The notes under the pieces were generated by a model. It did no database searches and had not been told where the DNA came from. It worked only from the letters and a program-made list of their open reading frames with translations. Source: Marchantia polymorpha subsp. ruderalis (taxonomy: Eukaryota > Streptophyta > Marchantiopsida > Marchantiales > Marchantiaceae). From it: a stretch of 64,000 nt of DNA. Shown here in pieces: positions 23,549-63,019 of the stretch. The stretch is from NCBI GenBank assembly GCA_037833965.1, contig AP031353.1:13394501-13458500 (forward strand), written 5' to 3'. The position numbers and the translations under genes are program-made. Position 1 is the stretch's first letter. Each line of letters begins with the position of its first letter.

Positions 23549-26500
23549 ATGAGTTCTCTGGAATTTGATGAAGCTGCTGACTTGGTACGTAGCTTCTCGA
23601 GCTTCTGAGAAGAATGCCCAGTTTTGTTTGGCTTTGATAACAGTTCTCTTTCATTGTTTAGAATCAGTTGAACTCGAACATTACCACCATCATGGTCTGA
23701 GTACTGCATCTAAGGAGGAGAGTATATAATTGAAAAGAGAATCCTTTGTCCTGAGCAATCGTGCCTTGTGCAGGAGCACATACCGGTCGAGGAAGTTTTC
23801 GCTCAGCTAAAATGTTCCCCGGAGGGCCTGACGTCAACAGAGGGCGAGGCTCGTATCAAAATCTTTGGCTACAACAAACTTGAAGAGAAATCGGTGGGAG
23901 CTAAAATCGAGATTCATGATTCAATTTTGAAATAAATTTCAATTATGGAGACTCCTAGATGACTTAAAGTGTGTTGAGTTGATTGACGAATATTTTGCTT
24001 TTGCATTGCATTTCAGCACTCTAGAAAGATAATTTCCCTGCAACCTTTGCCCTCTCGTCCATGTTTGAGGAGAATATGAAAACATCACTCTCATGTCCCA
24101 AAATTACAATACACCTTATCAGGCAGATAATCTTGAGTCAAACTCATTCATTGTATTGATTATATAACATGAGTTATGTTTGCTATGTGAGCTTTGCAGG
24201 AGAGTAAGATCTTGAAGTTCCTTGGTTTTATGTGGAATCCATTGTCTTGGGTCATGGAAGCTGCTGCAATCATGGCCATCGCTTTGGCCAATGGCGGAGT
24301 ACGTTTCTTCCTAGTTGTTTTCTTTCATAAGCTTTCTTCACTCAAATTCAAGGAAAGGAATAGTCAAAATGTATATAGTGAATAGCCTAAAATATTCACA
24401 AGCTCTCTCTGTCTTAAATATTTAGGAGATGAGTACAGTTCGTTCATAGATGTGGAATACAATATAAACAGGATGGCTTCACGTGGACTGTCACCCATAA
24501 ACAAGATATCTGAATGGTAACGCATGTATGCAGGGAAAGCCCCCAGACTGGCAAGATTTTATCGGTATCTTGACACTTCTCGTCATCAACTCCACAATTA
24601 GTTTTGTCGAGGAAAACAACGCAGGAAATGCTGCAGCTTCACTTATGGCCCGACTTGCTCCAAAGACGAAGGTATGTGATTTGATCAGACCTGCTATTTG
24701 TAAATCTTTCATTTAAGTGTTTTAATATCCAATAGGACTTGAAGTCTGGAACACCGTCGAAGCTTCGCACGTAGCTTCAGTGTCTAATTCTGGCCTTGTA
24801 GGTCCTTCGAGATGGCAAGTGGTCCGAGCAGGACGCAGTGATTCTTGTACCCGGAGACATCATCAGCATCAAGCTTGGTGACATCGTACCTGCAGACGCT
24901 CGTCTTCTCGAAGGAGATCCTTTAAAGATTGATCAGGTACTTTAAACCATCCCAACAATGAGGCTTTCCAAAGTCTGTTGAGTTTGAGAATCAACGGTAA
25001 CCAAAATTCTACTGCAACAAAGCCATATTGACATTTCTCAATGATTGGCCCTATCACAGTCTGCACTTACCGGAGAGTCTCTTCCAGTCACCAAAAAGCC
25101 AGGAGACGAAGTGTACTCAGGCTCTACTTGCAAGCAAGGAGAACTTTCAGCGGTGGTGATTGCTACTGGTGTGCATAGCTTTTTCGGTAAAGCTGCTCAC
25201 CTCGTTGATAGCACACACCAAGTGGGACACTTTCAGAAAGTAAGTAAGGAAGTAAAGCACAGATCGTTTTCGCAAATATTCTCTAAAAATTTTGATCTTT
25301 TCTTGGCGACAACGATTCGAATTCTTTTAGCTTCTTTATCCAATTATCAGGTTCTGATTCCTTGTTGACGAATGCAGGTGCTGACGTCGATCGGAAATTT
25401 CTGCATCGTCTCCATCGCAACAGGCCTGATCATTGAGATTATTGTAATGTACGCTGTTCAAAAAAGGAAATATCGAGAAGGAATTGACAACCTTCTGGTG
25501 TTACTTATCGGAGGAATTCCCATAGCTATGCCAACTGTGCTATCTGTCACCATGGCCATTGGTTCTCATCGCCTGTCTCAGCAGGTAAGATTAAGTGAGA
25601 AAAGGCCTGGAGCAGTGCATTGCTGCAACTCAGTTGCTAGTTAGCTCCGGTGAATTATTTATCTATGGCACTCTGGTGAGATACAGGAGCTAAACGCATG
25701 TGCAGTGCTTTATCGCTGATGATCAGTATGTGTTTCAGCAAGTATACACCACACTGGTAACAACTAACTCCATCATGAATACTTTCTCTGTAGGGTGCTA
25801 TTACGAAGAGAATGACTGCCATCGAGGAGTTGGCGGGTATGGATGTGCTGTGCAGTGACAAAACTGGAACGCTAACTTTGAACAAGCTGACCGTAGATAA
25901 GAATCTCATTGAGGTATAACTTATTTCATTAATTTAATCTCCTGCATGTACAACCCTTCAACATTTCTAGCACGATACTCTTTAACAGGGATTCTAAAAC
26001 CAATACTTGAATGCTGGGTTGCAGTGTTTCACAAAAGGTATCGACAAAGACTATGTGGTCTTATCGGCAGCTAGAGCTGCTAGGACAGAGAATAAAGATG
26101 CAATCGATACCGCCATAGTTGGGATGCTCGCAGATCCAAAGGAGGTAACTATATATATATATATGTTTAGATATCAGTCACATCAATCTCATTTGAAAAT
26201 ATATTGAGGTACTCAAGCTTGAGCTCGACAGAACGAATGCTAACAAGTGGTCATCTCTATGTTCAGGCTCGTAATGGCATTCAGGAGATTCACTTCCTCC
26301 CCTTCAACCCTACGGACAAGCGTACCGCCATTACCTTTATTGATCAGAGCGATGGGAAGTGGCACAGAGCTACCAAGGGAGCTCCAGAAGAGGTCCAAAA
26401 TGCTTCCTGGACTTAAAACTGCATTCAGTAGCCAAACACTTCAGTGGAGGAGAGCACATTATTTCAAAAATTAAACGTTCCGATCAGCAAATTTGCTTTG

Positions 26501-29500
26501 TTACTTACTGAAGTCTTTTTCCAGATCTTGGCTTTGGCGAAGAACAAGGATCAAATTTCTGCCAGGGTGCACACTGTCATTGACAAATTTGCTGAGCGAG
26601 GGCTTCGATCCCTTGCTGTCGCCAGACAGGTACAATCCTCTTCCACATCTTCTTTGTCGGAATAAGTTTCAAGGTTGAAGTCTTTCAGTGATTCGGAGAT
26701 TGCAAAGACACCGAGATAAAATTAACATTTCCGTGATACTTCTGGTACTTCAGGAAGTACCTGAAAAAAGTAAGGATAGCCTTGGAGGTCCTTGGGAGTT
26801 TCTTGGTCTATTGCCCCTGTTCGATCCACCCCGTCATGACAGTGCGGAAACTATTAGCAGAGCTTTGAACCTAGGAGTGAACGTCAAGATGATAACAGGT
26901 ATACATTTCAAAATCACGTAGCTTGATAAAGATTTATTCATTTATGATTCTATCATCTATTTCTTCCACTGCTTCATTCTTGGCTCTCTTTATCTCTCAC
27001 TCACGTTTTTCTTTGGTCAATAGTTCCTTATTCTAGAATTTCTTTCTCAAAAACCTGTGAAGAGGTATTATAAGGACAACCATCTGTTCCAACCATAGAC
27101 TTCAAACTAGGGAGTATTAACATGTATTCGAGCCGGATTGAAATCAGGTGATCAGCTGGCTATTGCAAAAGAAACTGGACGGAGACTTGGCATGGGGGCC
27201 AACATGTATCCATCTGCAGCACTATTCGGAAATAAGAAGGATGCAAGAATATCAGAAATACCAGTAGATGAGCTTATTGAAAAGGCCGACGGATTTGCCG
27301 GAGTCTTTCCAGGTACGGAACCTTCATGTTTGTTTGATAAAACTTTCTGTTTAGCATGATCGGTGATTACATTGTAAACGGAAAATATATTGAACTTCTA
27401 GTGACTTTGTGTGACCGAAACTGTGCAGAGCATAAGTATGAAATCGTCAAAAGGCTACAGGAGAAAAAACATATCTGTGGCATGACCGGAGATGGAGTGA
27501 ATGATGCACCTGCATTGAAGAAGGCAGATATTGGAATTGCTGTTGACGATGCTACCGATGCAGCAAGAAGCGCGTCGGACATTGTGTTGACTGAACCTGG
27601 TTTAAGTGTTATTATTCATGCAGTTTTGACCAGCCGAGCCATCTTCCAGAGGATGAAAAATTATACGGTAACATTATACTCATGCCTCAAATTTACATTT
27701 GCAACTATCATTGCAGAAATGGAAATTCAGTCGCTTAGAACTGAGTTTCGGTCTCCGAAGTAAGATATAGGGATACATGTTTTTCTATTCTAATTTTCGC
27801 CATGGCGCTGATTGACAGATCTATGCAGTTTCCATCACAATCCGTATTGTTGTAAGTATCTCGTACACTTCAGTATTCTTTGGTTTCTCTTTCGGTTCAG
27901 TCATGGTATGCTGCAGAACGGAAATCATTTCCTTACTGACGAGTTTTACCTGTATACAGTTGTAATCTCTTTTATGAGTAATGGTTGGAAACATTAAATA
28001 ATGAATTCTGTTGTCTGTGTAGCTTGGCTTCCTCTTGCTCACCTTGATTTGGAAGTTCGATTTCTCTCCCTTCATGGTTCTGATCATCGCAATACTGAAC
28101 GACGGTAAAAATTTCTCAGACCCAAAAACTTCAGTACTTGATTTTTTTCTTAGTAATCAGAGTTTTTGGCTTTGACAGTCAGAACATTCATCTGAAGCTT
28201 AGCTCATGTCTCAACTACCAGCTTTGGGATTCAAATCTAGAATGATGTAACTCGACCTTCCGCTTCGATTATCATAAGGAAGTTTTGTAAACAATGTCAG
28301 GAACCTGAAGTCGTCTTTTGCCTGGCCTTCAGGAACAATCATGACTATCTCTAAGGATCGTGTCAAGCCATCTCCTCTTCCTGACAGCTGGAAGCTTGCC
28401 GAGATCTTTACCCAGGGAGTGGTAATTGGGACATACTTAGCGCTCATGACCGTCCTTTTCTACTGGGCAGCAGCGAAAACCAATTTCTTTGAGGTAATAT
28501 TTTACTGTCACACTCATAAACGCGAAGTCCTTGCATATCGGACATCAACGGTTTTTCCTTTCAAGGATTACCTTTTTCGCCTGGCTAAAACTAGCTATGG
28601 CCAGCATGCAAGTACAAATGCATACCTAATTTTTCAGTTCAATCTACATAATTTACCTCTTTATGCAAGGGACTGACTCTGATATCTCTTCCTTTCTCTT
28701 CTCAGAGAACTTTCAACGTCCATTCTCTGAATGGATCTCATGATGAGCTCACAGCAGCGGTTTATCTCCAAGTCAGTATCATCAGTCAGGCTCTGATCTT
28801 TGTGACTCGATCGATGAGCTGGTCATTCATGGAACGACCAGGATCATTGCTCATGTGTGCATTCTGTATTGCACAACTGGTGAGTGTTGCGAAAGACCTC
28901 TGCACTGGAAATTCTAATTTTAAGTCATAATCATGGCTAGTTTGTCTTGAAGAAATTCAACCCATGATATAAGCATTCACTTTCATAGTGCTCTTCGAAC
29001 CCTGGTTAGGATGATCAATGAGAATTTCAAATACCAAAGACTAGTAGTAAGAGTCTTATTGAATCAAGATCTTTCTATGCTGCAGGTTGCCACTTTGATC
29101 TCTGTTTACGCAAACTGGAGCTTTGCTCACATTAAGGGAATCGGTTGGGGCTGGGCTGGAATCATCTGGATATACTCCGTTATTTCTTACGTTCCACTCG
29201 ACCCAATCAAGTTTACTGTCCGATATGTTTTGAGTGGAAAGGCTTGGGATCTGATGCTCGAGCGCCGGGTACGCAGAACTTTCTGACATTCTATAACAAA
29301 TCACTGCTGTCTTTTCACTCGGAGATGTATGGTTTGTGCTGGTACGTAGCTGAATCAATTTGATCAAGGACCAATTTTGTTTACTCTAATTCTATCGATT
29401 TGTTGTAACTCAGACTGCTTTCACTTCTAAGAAGGACTTTGGAAAGGAAGATCGTGAGGCACAGTGGGCTAAGCAACAACGTACCCTTCATGGCCTCACT

Positions 29501-29975
29501 CAGCCTGGTTCTGAGGTCGGAGTTGACTTCCATGATGTACCCGAGCTAGCGCAAGAGGCTAAACGCCGTGCCGAGGTCGCAAAGTAAGTGGAATTTTACA
29601 TTGTACAAAATGGATCCAGGAAATCTACACCACTTACAATCTTTGCCTCACCCCAGACTTATAATGGATTCAATGTTTTCTTGGTTGCCAGCATCAGTTC
29701 CATTTGATATTTATGACAGAAGAATTAACTAGCTCTCCAGCCAATCCCGCGAAAAATTTACGTCTGTAGTAGTTTTACTTGAATATTACATTATTGCACG
29801 CAATCGTTGGAAGGGGTGAAATACTAAAACATCGTTCGATTTTTCGTACTGCGCGAGGAACAGGTTGAGAGGTGAAATTACATCATTGGATGATGATACG
29901 GCCTCCGTGAAGGGAGAGACTGAGAGGTACAGATTTCGAAAATATTCCGCAAGCCTGTCTGGCCGACAGCTCTAG
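23549..29975 (+). CDS. Plasma-membrane H+-ATPase (P3A), gene 1, non-pT tail
   Basis: Proton pump that hydrolyses ATP to export H+ across the plasma membrane. Assembled from 21 exons: 23549-23584, 23774-23893, 24200-24298, 24534-24671, 24802-24936, 25060-25239, 25378-25584, 25794-25913, 26025-26144, 26267-26392, 26525-26629, 26754-26898, 27148-27312, 27429-27667, 27819-27851, 28023-28104, 28333-28493, 28706-28879, 29086-29268, 29414-29583, 29864-29975. These total 2850 nt, or 949 aa, usual for the family, with no internal stop. Visible: TGES 180-183 (actuator), DKTGT with phosphorylated D327, TGDGVNDAP 585-593, M2 N104, M5 R654, M6 D683 (proton site). Regulatory region I (QRTLHGL, T880) is kept. 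The last exon lacks region II and the penultimate Thr, and ends in a basic RYRFRKYS stretch plus SGRQL. Oddities: an extra Gln412 absent from genes 2 and 3, AFCIAQL where they have AFWIAQL, and weak donors GTGGGA (intron 2) and GTCCAA (intron 10). Confidence 0.95.
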
Positions 29976-32900
29976 ATAGAAGTGATTAGTCAGTCAGTCA
30001 TCCATCGACAATGTTTTTAGTGTTGCGATGGAAAGGCATAGTTTTCGAGCGAAGAGAGCATGGACTTGTAGGAATATCACGAGGAGTACTCTCTGTCACT
30101 TCCAATAATTCTACTCAAGCTGATCTCTAGGAACAGGACGTAGATACTATTCTCCAATTTGCATTAAGAGAAGGATGGTAGTTCTGTGAGGTACAGCACT
30201 TCTTGCAAACTTCTGTCAGTTTGTACCGCAGACTGTCTTGTACGTTCACGTCTGTCATCAATATAAGACTGGTTCGCTTTTGCCCCTTCAAACAAAACTA
30301 TCTCGATTCTCGATGCTTCTTGCTCTTGGAAAATCTAAACCTTTGCTGCGAGCACTGACCGAAGGCACTAATTGCCAAACCACGGCTGTCTTGGGTTTGC
30401 TTTTAACTTCGGACCTCAGACTCATGACTTCGAGCCGACGTTGCTACTCCATATATATAGGAGAGGATTCTTCAAGAATGCACATGCAACCACAAAGTTG
30501 CCAGCATGAGTAGTAACTAGTCTTCACCGTCCAGACGACTGAGCATACCTATCTATACTCACATTCAATTTACTCTCAGATGCATCATGAAGAAAAGTCA
30601 ACCAGTTCTTTGTGTCTTCACGTTTCAGTTTATAACAGTGCAGGCCGGTTGGATGGTTTTGGAACTGTCTTTATTGAGTCTTCCAGTGCAAAATGTCTAG
30701 AGTCACTCTGGGGAGTAACGACCTGTTTCAGTGTTTCAAGGTTTCGTACAGAAAAACTAAGTCAAACCTAGAATGCCGAATTTTGTCATGCTCTCGTTTT
30801 AGTACATGGCCCCTCACTCCTGTACCTTCTGTGTCCCAAATGCCGGTATCAGAATCCCCATATCAAATTGTGGGCCCCTTTGTTTTTGTTTGCGTCACAG
30901 GACAGGTTTCTTCATCCATTTGTTAATACTATATTCACTTGTTTGGGGTTCAGCATATTGAAGAAAGCTAGAAGAAGAACCTAAGAGCTTTAGACAAATA
31001 ACCTCTCATCACGAGGTCCAAAGGTTTCTCAAAGCACTGCCTCCCAAAACTTGTGCATCATGGTATAAACGTAGCTCATTTTTTATTAATGTGCTCAGAT
31101 CTCGGCATTTCACACTCTAACCACTATCCGGCTCTACATTAACGAGAATGAATATCTTTGTGCTTTGCATGTATTTTGCACGACCCATGGGAACATAGTT
31201 TCACATTGTTATATTCCGATTGTTTTAATAAACTGGAAGGTGCAATTCAAACAGAATAAAGGAACCGGGTTTGCTGGTGAAGAGGCGAAGCCATGCATAT
31301 CATGGTTGCAGATATATTAGTATTAGTAGGGATATCAGTTGTCATTATGACCTCACCAACCGATCTGGACCACTGCCCTAGGAGCCGTACAACATAGTGG
31401 ACCATCACACGTCTCTTTAACCTAGCCTGATTTTCTTCATAGGTTTTTCGAACACGTGTGAGTTTTTGTAAATCTAATACGTTTTTCACACATCAAACAT
31501 TAATAATACATAAACCCTTGGATCTTGAAACATGTTGCTCCTTATATAAAAACTCTTTCTTCTATATCACTTTCTTTTTTTCATCCACCCATCTTCATAC
31601 CAGTTTCTTGACTTCTTGTATATGTGTTTTCGGTGAATCGTGAGTTTCAAATAAAAATGTGTTGATGCTAGAAATATTTAAGGTAGTCTATTCGTTGATA
31701 AGAAAATTTGGATACAAAATTAAGAGACTAATGCCATATTACACCAGAGAAATTTACACATGTAGGTAAAGGATACTAGTGCAATAAATAGCGAAGTAAA
31801 GATGCGATATTTCTCTGTGAACTCTGTAAGATGTTATCCACTAGTTATGGAAATAACATTATTATACCGAAAAGGAGCAGATCCAGTCTCTCAACCTAGA
31901 CGATTCTAGTTCTTGTAAAGATGTCGTTTTTATGTTCAAGTCAGATTTAGAGTCAAATTTATCAAATCGGAAGATTCATTCATAGATTTTTAGCTATGAT
32001 GTCATCAAGAAATTAAAAAAAATAATTTGAGTTGTCCGATATAATTTTAACATAAACTTTGTATAAAGCTTTACAGATGTACAGTTCTGAAGGCATATAT
32101 TTTTTTATTCTCAAAACAACAAAACTTAACTATAATGATCAATTATAAGTATTTATAATTACTGAAGTCATTAAATGTATTGACATTAAAATTTCAATTG
32201 ATTCACTTATTATAAAATTGATTGACTATTGGTGCATGATAGATCATTTTTTGTAAATTTTTATCTGTATAATTTGATGATTCAGAAAACAAATAAAAGT
32301 TTCAATAAATTTGATAAATCTAATTTAATTTTCCGATAAGCTTGATGGCTTGATTCTGATCAAGTTTATAATGATTTTTAATACTCACATTTTAATCTAT
32401 TTTTAAAAATTTAAAAAAATTTAAAAAATTTAAAAATTTAGAATTCTTGTTTATTTTCCAAGTCTCTATTCCAGAATTTTAAAAAAATTTAAAATTTTTT
32501 TGATAAGAAGATCTATAGAACAGTAAGATAGTATAAGATTTAACTTCCAATGAAATTATTCTAAAAAAAATAAAAATAATCCTACTGTAGAGAAAAAATG
32601 TAATCCATCAATCTTATAAAAGTTATAATTATATTTTTTAATTGAATTAAGCATTATCATATCTTTATATTTCACTTTCAAAGCAAAAAATATCGCTTTC
32701 TTATACTTCTTCTTGATATGTGTAGCAATATTACATCTCCTCAAGTTGTTGATATTTTTTATGCTTTTATTGAACTTTTCACATATATGCAATGATGCTC
32801 AGGGTTACTCAGTCAATTATTTTACAACGATACAATATATAAATATATCACAAATTTAAGTATTCGTATATATTTTACATGATAAGCTCATAATTTCCAA

Positions 32901-33480
32901 CATTGATGAATTTTTATTTTTCATTCAAAGCTTCTTATATAAATTTGACAATTGGATAAATAAAAGTGAAATTTTAAAACCATAAATGTTACTATATAGT
33001 AGATCATAAGTTTTCATTTATACGGTTTAATTTGTTATTGGATTCATTCAAGACATCATTTGATTAAAAATATCTAGTAGATTTGATCACAAAGTAGATG
33101 GGAAAATTGACATTTTGACAAATAAAAATGAATATTGAAAATAATGGAAATTTCCAAATTCATTTGAAAATTTAATTTAGAATTTTACTTTCAATGATTT
33201 CTTCTTACTGTTCAAACCTTGCTTAGATAGAGTTAAGGCTGCATATCTTTAATTTGTCATTTGCAGTGGGCTCATGAGCTACAATGCGTGTCAAAGCTAG
33301 TTATCCTTCCCTTATTGGAGCCTTTCGTGTACTCCTTTTCTTAAGGCCAACGTTCATTGTCGCATGCAAAAATACATTGTTAATTCAATAGAGATATGAA
33401 CTTATCTTTTATGGAGGCCACTACCTAAATGAATGGCTTTTTGAATTAAAAGAAAAAGGCTTTTTCAAACCACCGTATAA
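29976..33480. other. 3' flank of gene 1 and AT-rich spacer
   Basis: 29976-31640 is moderately GC-balanced and may include the 3' UTR; an aataaa lies at 31227-31232. 31650-33250 becomes very AT-rich, with A/T homopolymer arrays near 32400-32500. No gene recognised. Confidence 0.45.
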
Positions 33481-35234: not shown

Positions 35235-35965
35235 ACCAACTACGATACGACAAAATATATTTGTCATAAGAGGAGAAGGGTGCCAAATGTCATAAGAATG
35301 ATATGGGCTACAAAGCAAACTAGGTGCACAACAACTATATCACTACAATATTACCTCGGGTCTTTCCTCCTCTTGGAATTACTCTACGCTGACTCAGAGT
35401 TTGTTATCTTGTCATGATGATCGTAGGACTCGCTCCAGTAGGCACAGGAGCGAAGAATTGGAACCAGTAAAATAGAACTCCGTAGTATGGAAAAGTTGAA
35501 TCCTAGGGGAAAAAGGGAGAGGTTAGTTATCTCTCACTTTACTATATATTTTTCACTAATTAACCTTATAACACTACACAAACTATCAAATAAAAATATA
35601 TAATGGAGTGAAAAATAATTAGCACTAAATGGAAGATAACTAGCCGTTAAATTTTTATTTTTTATTACCAACTACAATGGGATCAAATGTATTTGTCATA
35701 AGAGGAGAAGGGTGCCAAATGCCATAAGAATGATATGGTCTACAAAGCAAACCAATCGCACTACAATATTTCAACCGGGCTTTACTCTACGCTGGAGTAC
35801 CTGTTAGACTGCAGGTTCTGAGACTCAGAGTCTGTTATCTTGTCATGATGATCTCAGGACTGGCTCCTGTGCCTACCGTCCGTGCTCACTCAGACAGAAG
35901 GGGAACCAACAAAAAAGACGACGTAATATGGAGAACATAGAGTCTACTGGAAGGAGTACAGGGTC
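35235..35965. repeat. Direct duplication of ~300 bp flanking a small TIR element
   Basis: 35235-35530 matches 35667-35965. Shared blocks include atttgtcataagaggagaag, agaatgatatgg, ctacaaagcaaac and gttatcttgtcatgatgat. The two copies are separated by about 136 bp that is mostly the inverted-repeat element at 35521-35645. Confidence 0.8.
35521..35645. mobile_element. MITE-like 125-bp inverted-repeat element
   Basis: The left end reads ggttagttatctctcac and the right end, reverse-complemented, reads ggctagttatcttcca, so the termini are imperfect inverted repeats (11 of the first 12 bases match). Complementarity continues inward in the atttttcactaatta and taattatttttcact segments, giving an overall foldback. 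It is AT-rich, short and non-coding, as expected for a MITE. A clear target-site duplication is not visible. Confidence 0.55.
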
Positions 35966-37525: not shown

Positions 37526-37533
37526 TTTATATG
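37526..37533 (+). promoter_or_regulatory. Candidate TATA box of H+-ATPase gene 2
   Basis: The sequence gctttatatg resembles the gctttatata motif upstream of gene 3. It lies about 290 bases before the gene 2 ATG, giving a plausible leader of ~260 bases. Confidence 0.35.
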
Positions 37534-37818: not shown

Positions 37819-40800
37819 ATGGATGACAAGCTGGGATCCCTCGAGGCCGTCGTCAATGAGACGGCTGATTTGGTAAGAGAGTCTGAACACGACAACGTTT
37901 TGAGTTCTGTTCTGAAAATTCTTCCTTTGTTTCTGTCCAAATGTGGAGATTGTCGGGACTACGAGAGCTCGATGTCTGGAGGTCCGAGGGGTGAAGATTT
38001 GATAAATGCTGAGCATTCCTTACGTGTTGGAAACTTGCAATGCCACAGGAGAACGAGATTCTAATATATATTCCAAATTCCCGTTATATTTCAGGAACAC
38101 ATACCGATTGAGGAAGTCTTTACTCAGCTCAAATGTTCCACCGAGGGACTGTCTCAGGCCGAAGGGGAGCAGCGTCTCAAGATTTTCGGATATAATAAGC
38201 TTGAGGAGAAATCGGTGAGAGTTATCAATGCATTCACGTTTCTGTTCTGTCCTTTGTAAATGCACGTCGAATGAAAGCTTGTTTGTTCACAGACCGCGAA
38301 ATCCGAGAGTTTTATCGAATCGCTTTGCGGCTGTGAGTTGAAAAATTAACAGCGACAGCAGTTGCCGGTCGCAAATTCAGAACAATCCGCATCTTTAATA
38401 TGTCCAGAATTGTGACACGGTGAACTTATGTCGCTCATGATCAGCCGGAAAGGGCAATAGCAGCTCAGAATCTGTTTCGAAGTACGAAACAGATAAAGCG
38501 TTTGTTCATTTATAGAGAGAACGTGTGGTTCATCAAGAGCAAATGCTGCGAACTCCAGTCGTGCGGTCTTCCGACTGCTAATCGTCGATTTTGTGCTTAC
38601 TGCAGGAAAGTAAGATTCTGAAGTTTCTGGGATTCATGTGGAATCCCCTATCATGGGTCATGGAAGCAGCAGCTATTATGGCGATTGCTCTGGCCAATGG
38701 AGGAGTGAGCACAAAGCCTTCTCATTTTTGCATTGAGAAACCTTGTCTGCTCATCATGAAGTTACTAAACGCTTTCATCTCTCTCCATTATGCCATCCAT
38801 TTGAGCCGCACGTATTTCTGCTCATTGATTTTCAATTTTAGAACATTCTTCAGCTAGTTAAATGTTTTTCTTCTTTCACCGTTCTGTAACTAAACTTCAC
38901 ACGATAATTTTCCAGGGAAAGCCTCCAGATTGGCAGGATTTCATTGGTATCATAACACTTCTGGTCATCAACTCAACGATCAGTTTTATCGAGGAGAACA
39001 ACGCAGGAAATGCTGCTGCTTCACTGATGGCTCGCCTTGCTCCAAAGACGAAGGTGAAGCTCATGAGCGTTGATTGGAAGAATTTATTTGTGGTAATCTC
39101 ATGACAAGTGGTGTTTGAGTCTAAATTGCTTAACTTTGCCATTCATTCACCTAAGGGGGCAAATCTGTTTTCCTACAGGTCCTTCGAGACGGAAAGTGGT
39201 CGGAGCAGGATGCGGAAATTCTTGTTCCTGGAGACATTATCAGCATCAAGCTTGGTGACATCGTCCCTGCTGATGCTCGTCTCCTCGAAGGAGATCCTTT
39301 AAAGATTGACCAGGTGAGAACAGAAGACATGTGATATGATATACATGTGATATACAGTCTTGTCTGTTCACAAGCCTGAACCAATGATCGTCTGTAAGAA
39401 CCACCCAAATTCATAGGCCTGAAATTGGAAGTCGTGTGCCTGCAGTCTGCCCTGACTGGTGAGTCTCTCCCAGTTACAAAGAAACCAGGAGACGAGGTCT
39501 ATTCCGGATCTACCTGCAAACAAGGAGAACTCCAGGCAGTTGTGATTGCTACTGGTGTGCACAGCTTCTTTGGGAAAGCTGCTCACCTCGTGGACAGCAC
39601 ACATCAAGTGGGCCATTTTCAAAAGGTGAGGTTTACAATTAATGTTGACAATGATCTTTCCCACCAATTGTCTCTTTTGAGAAATTTAATATTCAGGAAT
39701 GAATTGAATGATTAAGGAAAATAACAGAGCAGTGAAGCCCATAGAGGGCAAGAAAATAGAAGGTTGTAATAAGTTTTAAATGATGAGGTAGATGTAAAAT
39801 CTTGCTTATACATTTCTGATCCAGACATCTCAGGCATAATTCTTTGAGTTCAATCTATCTGACAGTAACCCATTCGATGATGATGATCTGCAGGTGCTCA
39901 CTGCCATAGGAAATTTCTGTATAGTCTCCATAGCCATAGGGCTGGTGATAGAAATCATTGTCATGTTCCCAATTCAGAGGAGAAAATACCGCGAGGGTAT
40001 TGACAATCTCCTGGTGCTGCTGATTGGTGGTATTCCAATCGCCATGCCTACTGTCCTGTCTGTAACAATGGCTATAGGATCTCACCGCTTGTCTCAGCAG
40101 GTAACTTTTGATATGGCTCATCCTGTTTAATAGTACATTTATGTATGTTCCTGGTTTCACCAACCTGCATCTATCTCTAGTGGAGTTCAACCTTCAGTAC
40201 GTGTGAAAGGTGAGGAAATGTAGTAATCTAATGAGACAGTCAGTACGTCTTGGATGGCGACAGTGTATCTTGCTGATCTCATCTTCTCTCTGGTTCAAAC
40301 AGGGTGCCATCACGAAGCGTATGACTGCTATCGAAGAGCTTGCTGGCATGGATGTCTTGTGTAGTGACAAGACAGGAACTTTGACTTTGAACAAGCTGAC
40401 AGTTGATAAAAATCTGATAGAGGTATTAGTGCCTGATTCAGTACATGTTCTTTGGCTCTTGTAAACTGATTTCAAGATAGCTTTGTCTTCGTTCATCCAT
40501 TTCGTCATATTGAGACTGACTTGCATCTATGTGAATCGTTCAACCCATTGCAGTGCTTCGCCAAAGGTATCGACAAGGACTTCGTGGTCCTATCGGCAGC
40601 TAGAGCCGCAAGAACAGAAAATCAAGATGCAATCGACACGGCGATCGTCGGAATGTTAGAAGATCCTAAACAGGTAAGCTAGAAGAGCTCAGTGTTTTAC
40701 CACAATTGTTCAGCTTTTGCAGAGTGCGGATTTTCTGTCGGGACTGCCAAAGAGTGACACATGATATCCTACTTTTTCCCAGGCTCGTGCGGGTATAAGA

Positions 40801-43800
40801 GAAGTACACTTCTTACCATTCAACCCTACCGACAAACGGACAGCCATTACCTACATTGACAGCGATGGTAACTGGCACAGAGCAAGCAAAGGAGCTCCCG
40901 AAGAGGTATGCACATTACCGATTCACTGTATGTAGGTTTGAGCTCTGCTATTTCTGGCCGTTCATGGGCATTGTCTAGAGATTCAGTAGTTTGATTCGTT
41001 TCATTATAATCATTCACCTTGCAGAGTTGCTTATTACCTGTTCAAGGCAGAACATCTGAAACTAGAAGAACCTGAGCATAATTATGGAGATCTGAACCTG
41101 ATGATGAGATCCGTGCACGCAGATTCTGCACTTGGCTCATAACAAGGAGAAAATTTCTGCCAGAGTACACTCAGTTATCGACAAGTTTGCTGAGCGAGGG
41201 CTTCGTTCACTTGCTGTTGCCACTCAGGCAAGGAAATTGAATAACTATCTTATTATAAATTGCTAATTTTAGTTTAGCTATGGCTATCTACTAAGAGGCC
41301 ACCTTGATGAATGCAGTTGTGACGTACAGAACGTGAAGTCTTTTTAATCCTCATTCCTCCCGTCTCATGCAGGAAGTACCTGCCAAAAGCAAGGACAGTC
41401 CTGGAGGTCCATGGGAATTCCTCGGATTGCTTCCACTCTTTGATCCACCTCGTCATGATAGTGCAGAAACTATCAGCAAAGCATTGAATCTGGGGGTCAA
41501 TGTCAAGATGATAACAGGTTCGTTTCTGATCACTGATGAGCCCTTGACATCGTGTTCAATTCTTTGAAATACATTATTCAGCCTATTATTATACCGCACG
41601 CCAAGAAAGAAGACTGCTTCTCCTGTTATAAACTTTCAATCGTCCACATCGATGTGCAGGTGATCAATTGGCCATTGCGAAAGAAACTGGACGTCGTCTA
41701 GGCATGGGAACCAACATGTATCCTTCTTCAGCACTCTTCGGCAATCGAAAGGATGATGCCATGTCAGAGTTACCCGTCGACGAGCTCATTGAAAAGGCCG
41801 ATGGTTTTGCTGGGGTCTTTCCTGGTAAAGTTGCAATTCCCCAAGAACCTTCTACGAGCAATTTCTGGCTTTTTGTGCTGTGGAATTCCACCTCGAGATT
41901 TGACACATTGGTCAATGGACATTGACGCATCTCACAGATTGGATTAACCTGAAGTCATCCTTTCCTTGCAGAACACAAGTACGAGATTGTCAAAAGGCTT
42001 CAAGAAAAGAAGCACATCTGTGGTATGACTGGAGACGGTGTGAACGATGCACCTGCTCTGAAAAAAGCAGATATCGGAATTGCTGTCGATGATGCAACAG
42101 ATGCGGCCCGAAGCGCCTCTGATATTGTCCTCACTGAACCTGGTCTGAGTGTCATCATTCATGCCGTGCTCACCAGTCGAGCTATCTTCCAACGGATGAA
42201 AAACTACACCGTAAGCCACTCTAACAATCGTAATCAACGCTACGTGAACACCATTCCACTAGAATTCCGCAGAATTTCTCATCTTTGGTGACCTTCTTTC
42301 TTGTCTTAGACCACCTCAAACGTGAACATCAATTTTTCTTATTAATTTCCGATCATGTTGGTTGCAGATTTACGCTGTCTCTATCACAATTCGTATTGTG
42401 GTAAGTAATCAGAAACCCTTATGATTCACCTCTTTCTTGTTGTTTGAATTGGGACGCAAGGTGGAATTGAAAGAGGTTCTGATACGATTCTAATCTGTTT
42501 CTGCAGCTTGGATTTCTTCTGCTCACGCTTATCTGGAAGTTTGACTTCTCACCATTCATGGTTTTGATCATTGCCATTCTAAATGACGGTAAGTTATCGT
42601 TCCCGTCTCTCGACGAAAGTCTTCAGCATTTTTGCATATGGATGAAATAGTTTGGTCGGTATTTGCTATCGACAAATTCCTCATTCATTCTTATTGGCGT
42701 GTTCTTCGTCAATCTACCGTAGAATCGTCATCTTCCTTCAAGATTGCACTCACCATCTGCGGAATTGTGCTTTGACTCTCAGGTACCATCATGACTATTT
42801 CCAAGGATCGCGTCAAGCCATCCCCTCTCCCCGATAGCTGGAAACTTGCGGAGATCTTCACGCAAGGAGTTGTCATTGGCACTTACCTGGCCGTGATGAC
42901 TGTCATCTTCTTTTGGGCAGCTGATAGAACTGACTTCTTCGAGGTAAGCTTGCAAACTCTTGTGCTCAGTGCACAGAAGCCCTCGACGATTGCCGCATAA
43001 AATCTTAAACTTCTTGCTGGAATGCAAACTAATGTGGCATTCTCCTGCGCAGCGAACATTCGGTGTAAGGTCACTACGTGGAAGCCCCAACGAGCTGACA
43101 GCCGCTGTGTACCTACAAGTCAGTATCATCAGTCAAGCTTTGATCTTCGTCACAAGATCCAGGAGCTGGTCGTTCACGGAGCGACCGGGTCTTCTACTCT
43201 TGGCAGCTTTCTGGATCGCACAGTTGGTAAGTATCATTGACTGAGACAACACTCTCTTCCATCGATTCTTGTTAGAACCCTCAGCTCATCAATTCCACCT
43301 CGATTGATAAAATTGGTTCTCTTTTCCAGGTCGCGACATTCATAGCAGTGTACGCCAACTGGGGCTTCGCTCGCATCACGGGTATCGGTTGGGGATGGGC
43401 TGGTGTCATTTGGCTATACTCCATCATCACCTACTTCCCCCTCGATATCATCAAGTTCGCTGTTCGTTATATTCTCAGCAACAAAGCTTGGAACCTCATG
43501 ATGGAGCCCAGGGTACGTCTACCTCCGTCTTACATCTTCCTCTCTCTCAGAAATTACTCGGATTCTTCACGACAACGCGCTCGTACAGGCAAACTCAAAT
43601 TTTCTTGTTTGTGTGAAGAATCGTGTTCCTAATCATGAAATGCGGCACTGAATGACTGTGCAGATGGCGTTCACCCAAAAGAAAGACTTCGGAAAGGAAG
43701 ACAGGGAAGCTCAATGGGCTAAACAACAGCGCACCCTTCACGGGCTGGACAAGCCTGGGACGTCAGCTGAGGCAGAGAACTTGAAGGACGTGCCAGAACT

Positions 43801-44082
43801 CGCCGGAGAAGCCAAACGACGGGCGGAGATTGCCAGGTACATTTCGATAGCCAATCTCGATTTCTTCTCGTTCTAGAACAAGAATGCTTCCGAGAACGTC
43901 AGTCTTCTTCATATTGCTATCACCTCGAAATGCTCACATGTCCCATCTGTGAATTCTTTTCGATCTTTCGATTGTGCAGGCTTCAAGAATTGCTCACGCT
44001 GAAGGGGGCGACCGACGCGACTTGCGAGGTGGAGAGATTTAGATACAGAAAGTATTCCGTAGGCCGCCAAGTAGCGCTGTAG
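37819..44082 (+). CDS. Plasma-membrane H+-ATPase (P3A), gene 2, non-pT tail
   Basis: Second tandem proton pump, 21 exons: 37819-37872, 38095-38214, 38606-38704, 38916-39053, 39179-39313, 39446-39625, 39894-40100, 40303-40422, 40554-40673, 40783-40905, 41123-41227, 41373-41517, 41660-41824, 41972-42210, 42368-42400, 42507-42588, 42783-42943, 43053-43226, 43330-43512, 43664-43836, 43980-44082. Total 2859 nt, 952 aa, no stop. TGES 186-189, phosphorylated D333 in [14 protein letters not shown] 590-598, N110, R659 and D688 are all present. The ATG at 37819 has a good context (gccATGg), and its 18-residue first exon ends in ETADL, like gene 1's EAADL. Region I QRTLHGL is kept (T885). The last exon starts like region II ([10 protein letters not shown]), then switches to a basic FRYRKYS tail ending QVAL, so no penultimate Thr. 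Intron 11 (41228-41372) has a GC donor (cag|GCAAGG). Closest in tail type to gene 1. Confidence 0.95.
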
Positions 44083-51438: not shown

Positions 51439-51439
51439 T

Positions 51440-52212: not shown

Positions 52213-52703
52213 GTGAGTTGGTGGTGATTTACATGTTGCAGCTGCGTTTGAAATGACTTTGATATCACTCGTGGGGCGAGGTCACGGGTGGTGGTTTGGG
52301 GAAGAAGTGAATCCTTGCATATATTAAACATCTTTGGGATATAAGACTGAAAAGGAAAATAACCATGAAAATGCTGGTAACGCAAGCTCTAGATACTGCG
52401 TTGATAACCCAGAATAATATCTCTCTTCTGGTGAGGATGAGGTGGATATGTCAGAAGTCTGTACCAATAAGTACTATGAATTGTCAACTTCAACCAGTCG
52501 ATCTGAGGTTTTCAGGTGCTACACTGATCGATAGTGAGTTGGTGGTGATTAACATGTTGCAGCTGGGTTTGAAATGGCTTTGATATCCCTCGTGGGGCAA
52601 GGTCTCGGGTGCTGGTTTGGCGAAGAAGTCAATCCTCTTATATATCATATATTTTTTGCATATATCAAACATCTTTGGTGTATACACCTAAAAAGGAAGA
52701 TAA
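52213..52703. repeat. Direct repeat pair, ~160 bp each
   Basis: 52213-52366 and 52534-52703 share gtgagttggtggtgatt, acatgttgcagctg, cgtggggc.aggtc and atcaaacatctttgg-type blocks at ~321 bp offset, with small indels in the AT-rich part. No coding meaning recognised. Confidence 0.85.
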
Positions 52704-56343: not shown

Positions 56344-56351
56344 TTTATATA
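56344..56351 (+). promoter_or_regulatory. Candidate TATA box of H+-ATPase gene 3
   Basis: tttatata lies 168-175 bases upstream of the ATG at 56519 within gctttatatagcagc, similar to the motif upstream of gene 2. A start about 30 bases on would exclude the open upstream codons from the protein. Confidence 0.45.
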
Positions 56352-56518
56352 GCAGCAATTGCATGAATCTTCCATCCACTTCTCTCCAGCATTCCCATTT
56401 TCTTGCTCAGTGTCTTCGCTACTCTTGGACAAAGCTGAGTGGAAAATGTGTGTGGTGCTGTGACCTTAGTGCCAACCAAGCTTTGGAGATCGTCAGTGCG
56501 TTGCAGAGCTCTCCAGAC

Positions 56519-59500
56519 ATGGAATCGACTGATGAGAAGACGTTGGCCAATCTGGAACATCTGACAAATGAAACCGTGGACTTGGTAAGTGCCAATGGAG
56601 TATATTTCGAGCTCATGCAGTTCATGTCAACCATCACACTCTTGGAGCTGCTACGTTTACTTGCCATCATAAATTATTCTCATTGATTGCATATAGAGGA
56701 TGATAAAAAATTCAAGTTCGGACCCAGTCATGTACGCTTTCGAACCTCGTAAAATCTGATTCATTCGAATTTGATGACTTTTGCAGGAGCATATTCCAAT
56801 CGAGGAGGTTTTCCAGCAACTGAAGTGCACAAGGGAGGGACTTTCGAAATATGAAGGAGATGCTCGTCTCAAATTATTTGGATACAACAAATTGGAAGAA
56901 AAAAATGTCAGCCTCTCGCTCTTGAATGGAGCTTATGATTTCATTGATTGCTAATGACATCCTTTTGCAACCATGATCTTCCAGCATCAGAGATACGAGA
57001 TGAATCTGTCCCTTCTCTCAATCTAATTTATTTCAGCAGTAGTCCGGTCTTGGCTGATCTTAAACGGTCGTCCTCAGAATGCTTTCACAATAGTCGAGCA
57101 TTTCCACCTATTTCCAGACAGAGTTTCGCCCTCCCATTCCCTCATCGAATTTCCAACTTCTGGCCTGGCTGGCAGGCAGGCAGTGACGTGACTGCATGTC
57201 TGTTAGGCTGTTCGAAACGCACGGAGTTTAGCAAACATTCCTCGACCTGCATTGGCCGTGTCCACTTGGTTTGTCGTGAGGTTTCAGGACTTTGGAGGCA
57301 GTCTGCCAGCCTGAGAGAAAGGACCAGAAAGCTTATGAAATCTTCCATAGGACTCTTGTGATGTATTTCTTCCTTAGAATGTCATGTGCAACCGGTAAGT
57401 TGGTATTTGGTAGTTTTTCATAAAGAAGCAGTCAAGAGGACCGCTTAGACAAGGCGGCTCTTCTTCCTCTTCCTGGATGGCTTGGTATTGCTCAGACCCA
57501 GGGACATTGTTCAGATAATGACATTGCTCGTCTTATTTTTTGCATTGCAGGAGAGCAAGATCCTCAAGTTTCTCGGTTTCATGTGGAACCCTCTGTCATG
57601 GGTCATGGAGGCAGCAGCTATCATGGCTATAGCCTTGGCAAATGGCGGGGTGCGTAAAATTTCATGACCCAAGCTGCTTTACGGATTACGCACGTGTGAT
57701 GAGAAGATTTGTCATCGTTGTGTAAAGTTTCGTTCGTACTACATCTGGAAATTATTTGCTGATGAAAGTGAGCGATTCACATTTTGCAGGGAAAACCACC
57801 AGATTGGCAAGACTTTATTGGTATTTTGACGCTGTTGGTGATCAACTCGACCATTAGTTTCATCGAGGAGAACAATGCTGGTAACGCAGCTGCTTCACTA
57901 ATGGCCAAGCTCGCACCAAAGACGAAGGTAGCTATTCTCCAGGCTCAGCACTGGATTCATCTTTCTTCAAATCTCCATACCAGAGATACTTCCACAGGTT
58001 TCATTTGACCACGATTCTGATTCGTTTCGACTCTTGCACAGGTTCTGCGAGATGGCAGGTGGTCCGAGCAGGAAGCTGATATTCTTGTTCCCGGAGACAT
58101 TATCAGCATCAAATTGGGAGACATCGTCCCCGCCGATGCTCGCCTCCTCGAAGGAGATCCTTGTAAGATCGACCAGGTACGAATGTCCCGAAGATCTAAA
58201 ATTTGAATTATCGCGCAGAATGATGAAGGCCCGCCCACGTTAGTTTCCAGCTCTGACGGCCGAGTCCATTGTTAATTTAACTGAGTTACAACGCTTTGCG
58301 CAGTCTGCACTCACCGGAGAGTCTCTGCCAGTTACAAAGAAGCCCGGAGATGAGGTCTACTCAGGATCAACATGTAAACAAGGGGAAATTGAAGCGGTGG
58401 TTATTGCCACGGGAGTTCACAGTTTCTTTGGAAAAGCTGCTCACCTCGTGGACAGCACAAATCAAGTTGGCCATTTCCAGAAGGTAAAATTTCATCAAGC
58501 GACTTATATTAATTTCGTTGCCCGGTTAAGAATCGATGCAGTTCTCTGCAATAGTTGTGGTGGATAACTGATAATAATGTCTTCACGTTCCCATTGCAGG
58601 TCCTTACTGCTATTGGAAACTTCTGCATCGTTTCCATTGCAGTGGGTCTAGTGGTAGAAATCATCGTCATGTTCCCTATTCAGCAGAGGAAATACCGGGA
58701 GGGTATCGATAACCTGCTCGTGCTTCTTATCGGAGGAATTCCTATCGCCATGCCGACAGTCCTGTCAGTCACTATGGCTATCGGTTCACACAGATTGTCT
58801 CAGCAGGTACAATTGAATTGACCTGCTGTGAGTTCGTAACCGGACGTTGAGTTTCTTCGGCTCCAGAAGGTCGCCACCTAATTGAAATCATCGGCCGGTT
58901 TTGTTGATTCAGGGTGCAATAACAAAACGAATGACGGCCATAGAAGAGATGGCTGGAATGGATGTTCTGTGCAGCGACAAAACCGGAACTTTGACTCTGA
59001 ACCAGCTGACAGTAGATAGAAATTTGATCGAGGTGAGTGGCATTCCGCATTGACTACGTGTTAATCTCATTTTGCTAATTGATCATCCACTCGAGACAGA
59101 TTCCAAGTAGAAATGCCTGATAGTAATTAACCAGACAACTCGAAATTTTCGATGACTGCTGCAGTGCTTTTCCAAGAAGACGGACAAAGAGTTCGTTGTC
59201 CTCTCGGCGGCAAGGGCAGCCAGAACAGAGAATCAAGATGCCATCGATGCAGCTATAGTTGGCATGTTGGCTGATCCCAAGGAGGTTGGTGCATTGCAAC
59301 TTTGAAATTTTTTGGAGCTCACTCAGCCCTCTCAGACTTTAGGATTATTTGTGCTTGCTAATTGTGCTTGACTACTTGTTTACTTACGCAGGCTCGTGCT
59401 GGAATCCGAGAGATCCACTTCCTTCCATTCAATCCAGTGGACAAACGTACTGCAATGACATTCATAGACAGCGACGGGAAATGGCACAGGGCAAGCAAAG

Positions 59501-62500
59501 GAGCTCCCGAAGAGGTTCGTCCATCTCCAACATTCAGTTCATGATGTGCATATTTCATTCTATGAGTCTGTACGTTTGTGATGTTTCTGGTTTTTGTAAC
59601 TCAAACTACTGAAACTGCAGATTCTGCACTTGGCCCACAACAAGGATCAAATCTCTGCGAGAGTCCACGCAGTCATCGACAAGTTTGCAGAACGCGGACT
59701 TCGATCTCTAGCTGTCGCAACGCAGGCAAGATTATAAGCTACACACTATCAAATGCAGAGTCTTGTACTCGTCTTCATGGTAACATTTTACAGGCTTTGA
59801 CTTTTATTACGTGATTGACAATGCTTGTTGTCGCTAAACTGCCATTTCCAAATTCGTGTGATAATGCAGGACGTGCCGGAGGGTTGCAAAGAGAGTGCTG
59901 GAGGTCCCTGGGAGTTCCTCGGACTGTTGCCACTCTTTGATCCTCCCCGTCATGACAGTGCCGAAACTATTCGTCAAGCACTGAATCTTGGGGTGAATGT
60001 GAAGATGATTACAGGTTCATGACAAAATGCCATAAATCTGGTTCTCGATTCCTCGTCTTCCAAAGCTTGGCATGTTCCAGCATGTAGCTTCAAAACGCTA
60101 TCTAGAATTCGATATCAGACTTTTCAACCAGCAATGTTGAGGTATAATTCTCAACTTGAGAACGGGCATGAGATTTTAAAATCATGGATTTGTCCTTCCT
60201 ATCAGGTGATCAGTTGGCCATTGCAAAGGAGACTGGACGGCGATTGGGCATGGGTATCAACATGTACCCATCGGCAGCTCTGCTCGGAAACAGCAAGGAC
60301 GAATCGATCGCCTCTTTGCCTGTCGATGAACTGATCGAAAGTGCTGATGGTTTTGCGGGAGTCTTTCCAGGTATAAATTCGTGGCAATGTTGCATTTATT
60401 TATCCTCAGTCACTGCTGAAAGAGATGTAAAGCACATAGAGCTGCAAGATAATGGAATTCCTTGGATTTTGTCATGCAGAGCACAAATACGAAATTGTGA
60501 AGCGCCTGCAGGAGAAGAAGCACATCTGTGGTATGACTGGAGATGGTGTCAATGATGCGCCAGCACTGAAGAAAGCAGATATTGGTATCGCAGTTGCTGA
60601 TGCCACCGACGCTGCACGAAGCGCTTCAGACATTGTTCTCACTGAGCCTGGTCTCAGTGTTATCATCAGTGCCGTGCTTACCAGCCGCACGATTTTCCAG
60701 AGAATGAAGAATTACACAGTGAGTTTCTTCTTCATTCCTATCTATAATGCTATTTTCTTAGTACTACATTTGAGTCGTGTTATTATACGCGATCTCTTCT
60801 TTAGCTCAGATAGATTCACCATCTCGTTCTCGTGATAAACGCACGACTTCAGTCAGCTTCGGAAAGTCTTATAAACATGTGGTCAACCTAAAGCCACCTT
60901 TCTTACTACTTTTTAACCTAAAGCACACGTTCTGGCTTTTTTATGTCAGATCTACGCAGTTTCCATCACCATTCGGATTGTGGTACGTATCTTGTAGTAC
61001 AAGTCAGCTAGTCTTTCACAATAGTTTCTTAGTATTAAAAATTTGGAGAAAGATTGCCAAGTAGGAAAACTAGAAATCAAAGTGACCAATAGAAGTTGCT
61101 TGAGCTTTCGACCCCAGGAAAGGTTGAAATCGCCGATTTAGATATTTTTTTATTAATGAAGAAAAGAGAGAACGCAAATGGTTGACGCATGTACATTTTG
61201 CTGCTGCAGCTCGGATTTCTGCTGTTGACTCTCATCTGGAAGTTTGACTTCTCTCCTTTTATGGTCCTGGTTATCGCCATTCTGAATGATGGTAAGCCAC
61301 GATCATGATCGCGAAATCCGTTGCCATTGCCATGTTTGCAATGCTTGGTGTTTACTACTTGTACCTCAAACAGATATTGAGAAAACTTCTCGTAGGAAGA
61401 TCAACAGTCAGACTGTTTGATGGAAGTCAACATTTAACCCAGTGTTGATTTATCACCGCCTTCTTGACATCTATGTCCTTGCTAACTACTCTTGATGATT
61501 CCAACAGGTACAATAATGACAATCTCCAAGGATCGAGTGAAACCTTCTCCACTTCCGGATAGCTGGAAACTCCAGGAAATTTTTGCTCAGGGGATCGTCC
61601 TTGGCACATACCTTGCGCTTATGACAGTGCTATTTTTCTATGCCGCAAGCGAAACACAATTCTTTGAGGTGAGCTTCAGTCGACCTTGGATTTCTGAGAA
61701 TGAATTTTTTTTGAGGTCCCTGCATATATGGTTAAATTGTGATAGTCAATTATAGTACCTGACACATTTTTTTGAGTCTTCCAGACACACTTCAATGTGC
61801 ATTCATTGAATGGAAGGCACCAGGAGCTAGTTGCTGCCATTTACCTTCAAGTTAGTATCATCAGTCAAGCTTTGATCTTCGTCACCCGATCCACGAGCTG
61901 GTCCTTCTTAGAGAGACCAGGTCTACTTCTTCTGAGTGCTTTCTGGATTGCGCAGCTGGTAAGTTTCAACTCCACCCAAATCAAATATTTTCATCTTCGT
62001 CTAATTTTCCTAAGGGTCCTGCAGCTTGAGCTGACGATATGTCCTTCTCCGTCGAAACTCCATGTGATCACGATTGAGCCTGGCACCTTGCAACCACGGT
62101 ACAGACGTAAATGATTTGACGCGATGGATGAAATCATATCAAGTTTATGGTACTAGGATGTTAGGAATAGAAGAAGTCTATCCGAGACTAGTAGTGGCCA
62201 GATAGGATAGTATGAGGCTCATAATTGCGCCGCACTGACGGGAATCTGTGTCTTGCAGGTGGCAACACTTATTGCAGTATACGCAAATTGGTCTTTTGCT
62301 CACATTGAGGGTATAGGATGGGCATGGGCTGGGATCATTTGGCTGTTCAGCCTCGTCACTTATCTCCCTCTGGATGTGCTCAAGTTCGTTGTGCGCTACA
62401 CACTGAGCGGAAGGGCATGGGATAGCATGATCAACCGACGGGTAAGAGCATCAAGAGTTCGCATTGTATATTTTATTTCATTCTATCTAGTTTACTCTTT

Positions 62501-63019
62501 ATCTTTCCAGCATCGTGATATAGAAGACCCACAAAGTCGTTGCTAGAAAACTTTGCAAATAATCCTCCAGATCTTAGATTCATACGCATCTGATCTGGTT
62601 TTGTGTTCCACAGACTGCTTTCACGACCAAAAAGGACTTCGGTAAAGACGATCGCCAAGCGCAGTGGGCACAGCAACAGCGCACTCTCCATGGACTCGAG
62701 ACACCCGGTACCGTGACAGGCGTTGAGCAGACTTTCAAGGATGTGCCGGAGCTAGCAGGAGAAGCCAAGAGACGAGCAGAGATGGCCAGGTAATCAAGAC
62801 ATGTTCACCGTCACAAGTAAATTTTCGGTACCTATAGTCTGTCACTAGCTCTTGATGCAACTAGAATAAGAATGGGAAGTGGCGTATTGTGGTCTGATTC
62901 CTACCTTTCATGGCATGTACAGGTTAAGAGAACTGCACACTCTCAAGGGCCATGTGGAGTCGGTTTGCAGGCTGAAGAAGCTGGATTTGGAAACCATCCA
63001 GCAGTCGTACACCATGTGA
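56519..63019 (+). CDS. Plasma-membrane H+-ATPase (P3A), gene 3, pT tail
   Basis: Third tandem proton pump, 21 exons: 56519-56584, 56787-56906, 57551-57649, 57790-57927, 58042-58176, 58304-58483, 58600-58806, 58913-59032, 59165-59284, 59392-59514, 59621-59725, 59870-60014, 60206-60370, 60480-60718, 60950-60982, 61210-61291, 61508-61668, 61785-61958, 62259-62441, 62614-62789, 62923-63019. Total 2868 nt, 955 aa, no stop. TGES 190-193, phosphorylated D337, TGDGVNDAP 594-602, N114, R663, D692 present. The C-terminus has both autoinhibitory regions (QRTLHGL with T889; [15 protein letters not shown]) and ends SYTM, with penultimate Thr954. In angiosperm pumps that Thr is phosphorylated and binds 14-3-3 to release inhibition; Met replaces the usual final Val. 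Intron 11 (59726-59869) has a GC donor (cag|GCAAGA), and donor 2 is GTCAGC. The frame is open upstream to 56324, but family alignment and the TATA box favour 56519. Confidence 0.95.

Follow-up and report, generated by a model that had tools for sequence, protein, structure and literature searches.

The window analysed here is a stretch of 64,000 nucleotides of the bryophyte Marchantia polymorpha subsp. ruderalis (C4:13394501-13458500, in a genome of 241,466,482 bases on 9 contigs), and it carries three genes for H+-ATPases of the P3A class. The sequence-only reading of this DNA had described three intact, collinear 21-exon genes on the same strand. This description was confirmed by spliced alignment to Arabidopsis AHA2, from which the gene models are taken: all three genes lie on the plus strand, each consists of 21 exons with no internal stop, and the end points of that reading, 23549 and 63019, are the ATG of gene 1 and the stop codon of gene 3. 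The array continues on the 3′ side of the window with two further P3A genes, five genes in all (Table 1). In the canonical pumps the protein ends in Tyr-Thr-Val/Met/Leu, directly before the stop codon, and thus contains the penultimate threonine (pT). Such an end is found in gene 3 (SYTM) and in both genes outside the window, and is missing from genes 1 and 2, as had already been read for the three genes of the window. The present work deals with the origin of this difference; the last exon of genes 1 and 2 appears to be a pT last exon read in another frame.

Table 1. Coordinates of the H+-ATPase genes of the array and of the elements discussed (window positions, or contig positions where marked C4)
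Feature	Position	Strand	Description
Gene 1 (B1), P3A H+-ATPase	23549-29975	+	21 exons, 949 aa, C-terminus ...SGRQL
Gene 1, exon 20	29414-29583	+	autoinhibitory Regions I and II kept, RTLHGL (Thr881), AKRRAEVA
Gene 1, exon 21	29864-29975	+	apparent frame-shifted descendant of a pT last exon; old frame pT-like
Gene 1, new-frame motif	29922-29948	+	ERYRFRKYS, then GRQ at 29961-29969
Gene 2 (B2), P3A H+-ATPase	37819-44082	+	21 exons, 952 aa, C-terminus ...GRQVAL
Gene 2, exon 20	43664-43836	+	autoinhibitory Regions I and II kept, RTLHGL (Thr881)
Gene 2, exon 21	43980-44082	+	pT frame at start, shifted frame afterwards
Gene 2, new-frame motif	44032-44058	+	ERFRYRKYS, then GRQ at 44062-44070
Gene 3 (B3), pT P3A H+-ATPase	56519-63019	+	21 exons, 955 aa, C-terminus ...ETIQQSYTM
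Gene 3, exon 21	62923-63019	+	canonical pT tail
Gene 4 (B4), pT	C4:13465749-13471966
Gene 5 (B5), pT	C4:13475747-13481642

Genes 1 and 2 retain the body of a P3A pump. Both were scanned with TIGR01647, the model of the plasma-membrane H+-ATPase, and scored 1143.5 and 1139.8 bits, respectively, against a cut-off of 615.5. The identity of the core to AHA2 is 81-83% for genes 1-3, and all three carry the Gly of TGES, Asp329, Arg655, Asp684 and Asn106 (AHA2 numbering), the last four residues being present in all 18 aligned copies of the genome (the broken copies K2 and N1 stand outside the alignment). Regions I and II of exon 20, together with Thr881, are retained in the same three genes. The AHA2 labels near the C-terminus are one off, the sequence used having 949 letters and the table in PMC3355532 giving 948; the conclusions on the tail are unaffected because they are based on the DNA. 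Between the cores of genes 1 and 2, the nonsynonymous divergence (dN) is 0.060 and the synonymous divergence (dS), which is saturated, is 2.43, giving a ratio of 0.025 by a simple counting method that leaves many pairs without a dS value owing to saturation. In a protein tree of 19 sequences, the branch lengths of the two genes resemble those of the pT copies. Judged by the intact core and the ratio of 0.025, genes 1 and 2 would be working plasma-membrane H+-ATPases that pump protons.

Apart from AHA2, the genes compared all come from this one genome, in which at least 13 intron-rich P3A genes were found: A1-A3, B1-B5 (genes 1-5 of the array), C1, D1, E1 (C4), F1 (C5) and G1 (C2). This is a minimum count, as the protein search scored 48 of 241 candidates; the Pfam search scored 77 of 77. 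Twelve of the 13 genes have 21 exons and E1 has 19, and the model of A3 needed a GC donor set by hand. The protein ends in Y-T-V/L/M in ten genes, the exceptions being gene 1, gene 2 and C1. The splice position and the entry phase of exon 21 are identical in all 13, and its length is 97 nt in the ten pT genes, 112 in gene 1, 103 in gene 2 and 100 in C1. The last acceptor of gene 1 was placed by homology; an acceptor 6 nt upstream scores slightly better and leaves the frame unchanged. In genes 1 and 2 the frame of the pT tails, referred to below as the old frame, is displaced from the reading frame by one base, in the same direction in both. At the frame change, gene 2 has one additional base in the alignment of exon 21, and gene 1 has about seven. 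The initial codons of the exon are pT-like in gene 2, and downstream of them the pT-like frame is out of step.

Translated in the old frame, exon 21 of both genes resembles the pT tail of E1, RLKGLDIETIQQAYTV, as well as the stretch KGLDIETIQQA of pT tails, and the two share a Pro (ENIP, ESIP) where the pT tails carry Gln. The match of the old frame to pT tails scored 39 in gene 1, a value reached by 1 of 1000 dinucleotide shuffles, and 30 in gene 2 (19 of 1000). For the actual frame the scores were 24 in gene 1 (170 of 1000 shuffles) and 45 in gene 2 (0 of 1000), the latter because the start of its exon is pT-like. An alternative last exon ending in Y-T-V/M, which the sequence-only reading had named as the result that would overturn its classification, was sought in the DNA 3′ of genes 1 and 2, and no pT-like one was found. 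Scoring of acceptors up to 3 kb downstream gave no such exon. A scan for Tyr-Thr-[VMLI]-stop yielded one match in the 7,956 bases behind gene 1 (three open codons upstream, no AG) and one in the 12,203 bases behind gene 2 (seven open codons upstream, one AG), neither of them pT-like. The use of other pT last exons by genes 1 and 2 is rejected on the acceptor scoring and on the scan, which ended just short of the next gene.

The peptide encoded in the new frame is similar in both genes. Each carries the motif ER[FY]R[FY]RKYS, after which GRQ begins 12 nt later in gene 1 and 3 nt later in gene 2; the two spacings are thus 9 nt, or three whole codons, apart. As a codon pattern, the motif occurs twice in the 241 Mb, namely in genes 1 and 2, and the reversed control does not occur. 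The corresponding 27-nt segment is identical at 20 positions, and its seven differences fall on codon positions 1, 2 and 3 as 1/2/4 in the new frame and as 2/4/1 in the old one. The differing codons are synonymous in three of five cases in the new frame (the other two being Phe/Tyr swaps) and in none of four in the old frame, with BLOSUM sums of 38 and 17, respectively. Among 45 pairs of pT genes, the same segment gave a mean of 10.0 in the new frame and 25.4 in the old, the new frame being higher in two pairs; in the 33 pairs with at least seven differences the new-frame sum was at most 16. Simulations of random substitution, scored by BLOSUM, gave P values of 0.00025-0.00125 for the nine codons and of at most 0.0002 for twelve codons including GRQ. 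The introns of genes 1 and 2 show no similarity, since in all 20 pairs at least 3 of 100 shuffles score as high, compared with intron scores of 57-301 between A2 and A3. The substitutions in the tail thus follow the new frame and not the old, and from this pattern, seen in two paralogues, the tail was probably retained for a function. Its retention in both genes despite unalignable introns and saturated dS suggests that a role was gained.

The relationships of the pumps were studied in the 19-sequence protein tree under a fixed LG+G4 model, which includes no algal sequences, and in three trees of the 13 intron-rich genes, one with AHA2 added, in which the printed support shifts on rerooting and only the topology was weighed. 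In the first tree, one split (96.5/87) sets genes 1 and 2, gene 4 and A1-A3 apart from all other sequences, and another (94.4/84) joins gene 3 to gene 5; the same two groups were recovered in the three 13-gene trees. Genes 1 and 2 nest inside the pT clade. The five array genes and A1-A3, which form a second tandem array of three pT pumps at 8.02-8.05 Mb of C4, make up one group in the best tree, although the split is weak (64.3/54). The five-gene array as a clade on its own was rejected by the approximately unbiased (AU) test (p=5e-41), because the array at 8.0 Mb groups with gene 4. A grouping of gene 3 with genes 1 and 2 gave p=0.019 in the AU test and p=0.234 in the Shimodaira-Hasegawa (SH) test. 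The AU test likewise rejected two arrangements that involve the four intron-free pumps of the genome, which lack the R domain: their union with genes 1, 2 and C1 in one group (p=4.9e-5), and their grouping with genes 1 and 2 (p=0.0006). Because both were rejected, the starting state was likely pT and the direction of change from pT to non-pT.

These results alter the picture of the array drawn from the letters alone. Local duplication had been proposed there as the link between the two classes, and it is upheld as far as the genes of the array and of the 8.0 Mb array form one weakly split group, with the direction now pointing from pT to non-pT. Among the pT genes, gene 3 is not the one nearest to genes 1 and 2: it pairs with gene 5, and these two fall together with gene 4 and the array at 8.0 Mb. 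The assignment of genes 1 and 2 to the algal non-pT type is at odds with the AU test, with the presence of Regions I and II and with the frame-shifted pT exon; the retained R domain and this exon in turn indicate the direction.

Genes 1 and 2 combine a pT-like old frame, the loss of the penultimate Thr, a retained R domain, an intact core and a shared tail. The explanation that we consider probable is that both descend from a pT pump in which an ancestral frameshift removed the 14-3-3 site, the new tail being retained afterwards. A number of points weigh against this explanation. The comparison of the tail uses a short segment, whose borders were chosen after the peptides had been seen, in two sequences that differ at 2 of 9 motif residues (F and Y are swapped). 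When the simulations are scored by identical residues, the P values are weaker, 0.011-0.023 for nine codons and 0.0009-0.0024 for twelve. The profile of the pT exon matches the exons of genes 1 and 2 weakly (nhmmer E 0.13 and 0.59 in 94 kb), and the synonymous divergence of the cores is saturated. The sisterhood of the two genes is weak when judged from the core (34.2/60, and 49.2/60 and 63.1/70 in 13-gene trees), and the tree of codon positions 1 and 2 separates them, so that the shared frame becomes the main evidence for a single event. In addition, the loss of the penultimate Thr alone can silence a pump, since aha2T947A was inactive in yeast (PMC9708826), and AHA1-T948A showed no light-induced stomatal opening (PMC10879185).

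The weakness of the sisterhood would also fit two independent frame changes. In the new frame the pT gene F1 encodes EGFRYRHYS; the peptide is therefore nearly ready-made in some pT exons, and a similar one could have arisen on two occasions. Such a double event is nevertheless quite improbable in view of the same net frame, the similar residues, the shared GRQ block and the old-frame Pro that both genes carry against the Gln of pT tails. Frame changes commonly point to gene decay or to a miscalled base, and genes 1 and 2 could accordingly be decaying pseudogenes or be misassembled at the last exon. With no internal stop in 949 and 952 codons, intact catalytic residues, a dN/dS of 0.025 and branch lengths like those of pT copies, and with the same frame at two loci that differ at many sites, this explanation is hardly tenable.

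The new residues might instead be neutral filler, left when the frame change merely cut the tail off two constrained pumps. The residues preceding the motif are strongly diverged in gene 1 relative to gene 2, the identity-based conservation of the nine codons is modest, and Arabidopsis lines with nonsense residues after an engineered truncation are viable (PMC9708826). We regard it as unlikely all the same, as the 20 identities in 27 nt, the changes that fit the new frame and the spacing difference of three whole codons stand beside introns that cannot be aligned. The last alternative, that genes 1 and 2 are retained algal-type pumps, being the source of the pT type or standing beside it, agrees with their lack of the penultimate Thr and with the report of both types in bryophytes (PMC6985207). 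It is very improbable, given that the two genes have both autoinhibitory regions and a position inside the pT clade, are kept apart from the R-domain-less pumps by the AU test and possess a last exon that is pT-like in another frame.

The preferred explanation, descent from a pT pump by frameshift, can be placed in the known scheme of regulation. In Arabidopsis, the phosphorylated penultimate Thr binds 14-3-3 proteins, which relieves the block imposed by Regions I and II, and phosphorylation of Thr881 activates the pump without 14-3-3 (PMC9708826); the two residues are phosphorylated independently (PMC10879185). 14-3-3 genes are present in the Marchantia genome. From the sequence we infer a single event, as well as the activity, the regulation and a role of the tail, which would have come about as follows. 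In the common ancestor of genes 1 and 2, a net frame change of one base in the last exon would have replaced the 14-3-3-binding end by a peptide from another frame of the same DNA, Regions I and II and Thr881 being preserved. The resulting pumps would be blind to the kinases of the penultimate Thr, to 14-3-3 and to fusicoccin, and would depend on Thr881 and on an increased basal activity, in the manner of the engineered aha2Δ30. Alongside them, the pT neighbours would still answer to 14-3-3. The retained tail ER[FY]R[FY]RKYS..GRQ may have gained a role of its own, e.g., in contact with a basophilic kinase, calmodulin or lipid.

A further step is offered tentatively, with somewhat less than even confidence. 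The shifted tail may be a new regulatory module that originated in an overlapping frame of the exon for 14-3-3 binding and has been maintained by selection ever since an old duplication, with a kinase, calmodulin or an acidic lipid as its input in place of 14-3-3. RKYS may be a basophilic-kinase site, which is speculative. Calmodulin-binding sites are reported to alternate aromatic and basic residues (PMC3355532), and the application of this pattern to the new tail, with its alternating basic and aromatic residues, is speculation. If the proposal is true, one chromosome segment holds pumps with two alternative switches made from two frames of homologous exons.

The remaining P3A genes show other fates of the C-terminus. 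In C1 (C4, 16.14 Mb), the loss of the penultimate Thr left the frame intact: Gln replaces Tyr, one residue is added, and the protein ends in ...KAQTVP. As C1 lost the motif in frame and genes 1 and 2 by a frame change, the residue seems to have been lost at least twice among the R-domain pumps of this genome, the R-domain-less class aside. The intron-free, R-domain-less genes H1, I1, J1 and K1 have open reading frames (ORFs) of 862, 890, 858 and 870 aa, lie at 5.64 Mb of C3, 29.54 Mb of C4, 9.02 Mb of C5 and 10.51 Mb of C3, respectively, and form one clade (100/100). The algal-like non-pT class is more likely represented by these four, which may be retrocopies. M1 (C5:15816001-15826000) is a divergent R-domain pump with 10 exons in its model and Ala aligned at Thr881; it reads ...NFYTV without a stop (GTGAGT after the Thr codon), and its frame ends 14 residues further on in LYLYTL and a stop, again Tyr-Thr-Leu. 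Two other P3A copies, K2 and N1, are broken or incomplete; by eye, N1 resembles the middle of F1. A2 and A3 are recent copies (dS 0.07). A fragment of a P2D (ENA-type) ATPase was found at 11.94 Mb of C4 (856.6 bits, cut-off 645.05); mosses, fungi and protozoa are reported to possess this class, and liverworts to have related pumps (PMC3355532).

GC-AG introns were predicted in 6 of the 13 intron-rich genes, namely gene 2 (41228), gene 3 (59726), gene 4, A2, A3 and D1. Genes 2 and 3 have the GC donor at the same intron, after exon 11, and A3 has an additional one after exon 5. The start of gene 3 is a choice, because a second in-frame ATG lies upstream of the modelled one. A direct repeat of 75 nt lies immediately 3′ of gene 3 (63582-63731), and repeat pairs of 131 nt (52213-52664) and 100 nt (35235-35766) lie between the array genes. 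Elsewhere in the window there are a low-complexity stretch with ADLEFADLKF-like coding units (2089-2598) and, on the plus strand, an ORF for a cupin (germin-like) protein (12681-13373, Pfam PF00190, E 1.5e-26), the one match in a Pfam scan that covered 10 of the 63 listed ORFs.

No report of frameshift-born tails in plant H+-ATPases was found in the literature searched, the liverwort papers PMC3375944 and PMC3474699 lying outside its reach. Among known pumps, genes 1 and 2 share the core, Regions I and II and Thr881 with the canonical pT pumps (AHA2, gene 3) and differ from them in lacking the terminal Tyr-Thr-Val/Met/Leu. Bryophytes are reported to have pumps both with and without the penultimate Thr (PMC6985207, PMC10003446), and in this lack genes 1 and 2 are like the algal and bryophyte non-pT pumps. 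They are unlike the pumps of green algae and Chara, which are described as having no R domain (PMC6985207, PMC9708826). The non-pT pumps of land plants would therefore fall into at least two kinds, R-domain-less pumps and R-domain pumps with a later loss of the 14-3-3 site, and the counts of bryophyte non-pT genes need not mirror algal inheritance.

The closest counterpart is aha2Δ30 of Arabidopsis, in which one-base insertions made by CRISPR removed the 14-3-3 site, confined the loss to it and left Regions I and II (PMC9708826). According to the same paper, the allele partly rescued yeast at pH 5.5 and not at 4.5 or 3.5, and the more residues were deleted, the more efficient was the proton extrusion of the plant. 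That allele is laboratory-made and adds one residue, whereas the change in genes 1 and 2 is natural and old, with about 20 new-frame residues in each; as a natural counterpart, they would make it possible to study the cost and use of a 14-3-3-free pump in a plant that retains such a pump. An analogous origin of a C-terminus is known from the euAP3 motif of MADS-box genes, where a frameshift after duplication made a new conserved end (PMC1513400). The euAP3 case concerns a eudicot transcription factor, and here the protein is an ion pump of a bryophyte with conservation between two paralogues, which would make it another example from plants, besides euAP3, of a conserved C-terminus that originated in a frameshift.

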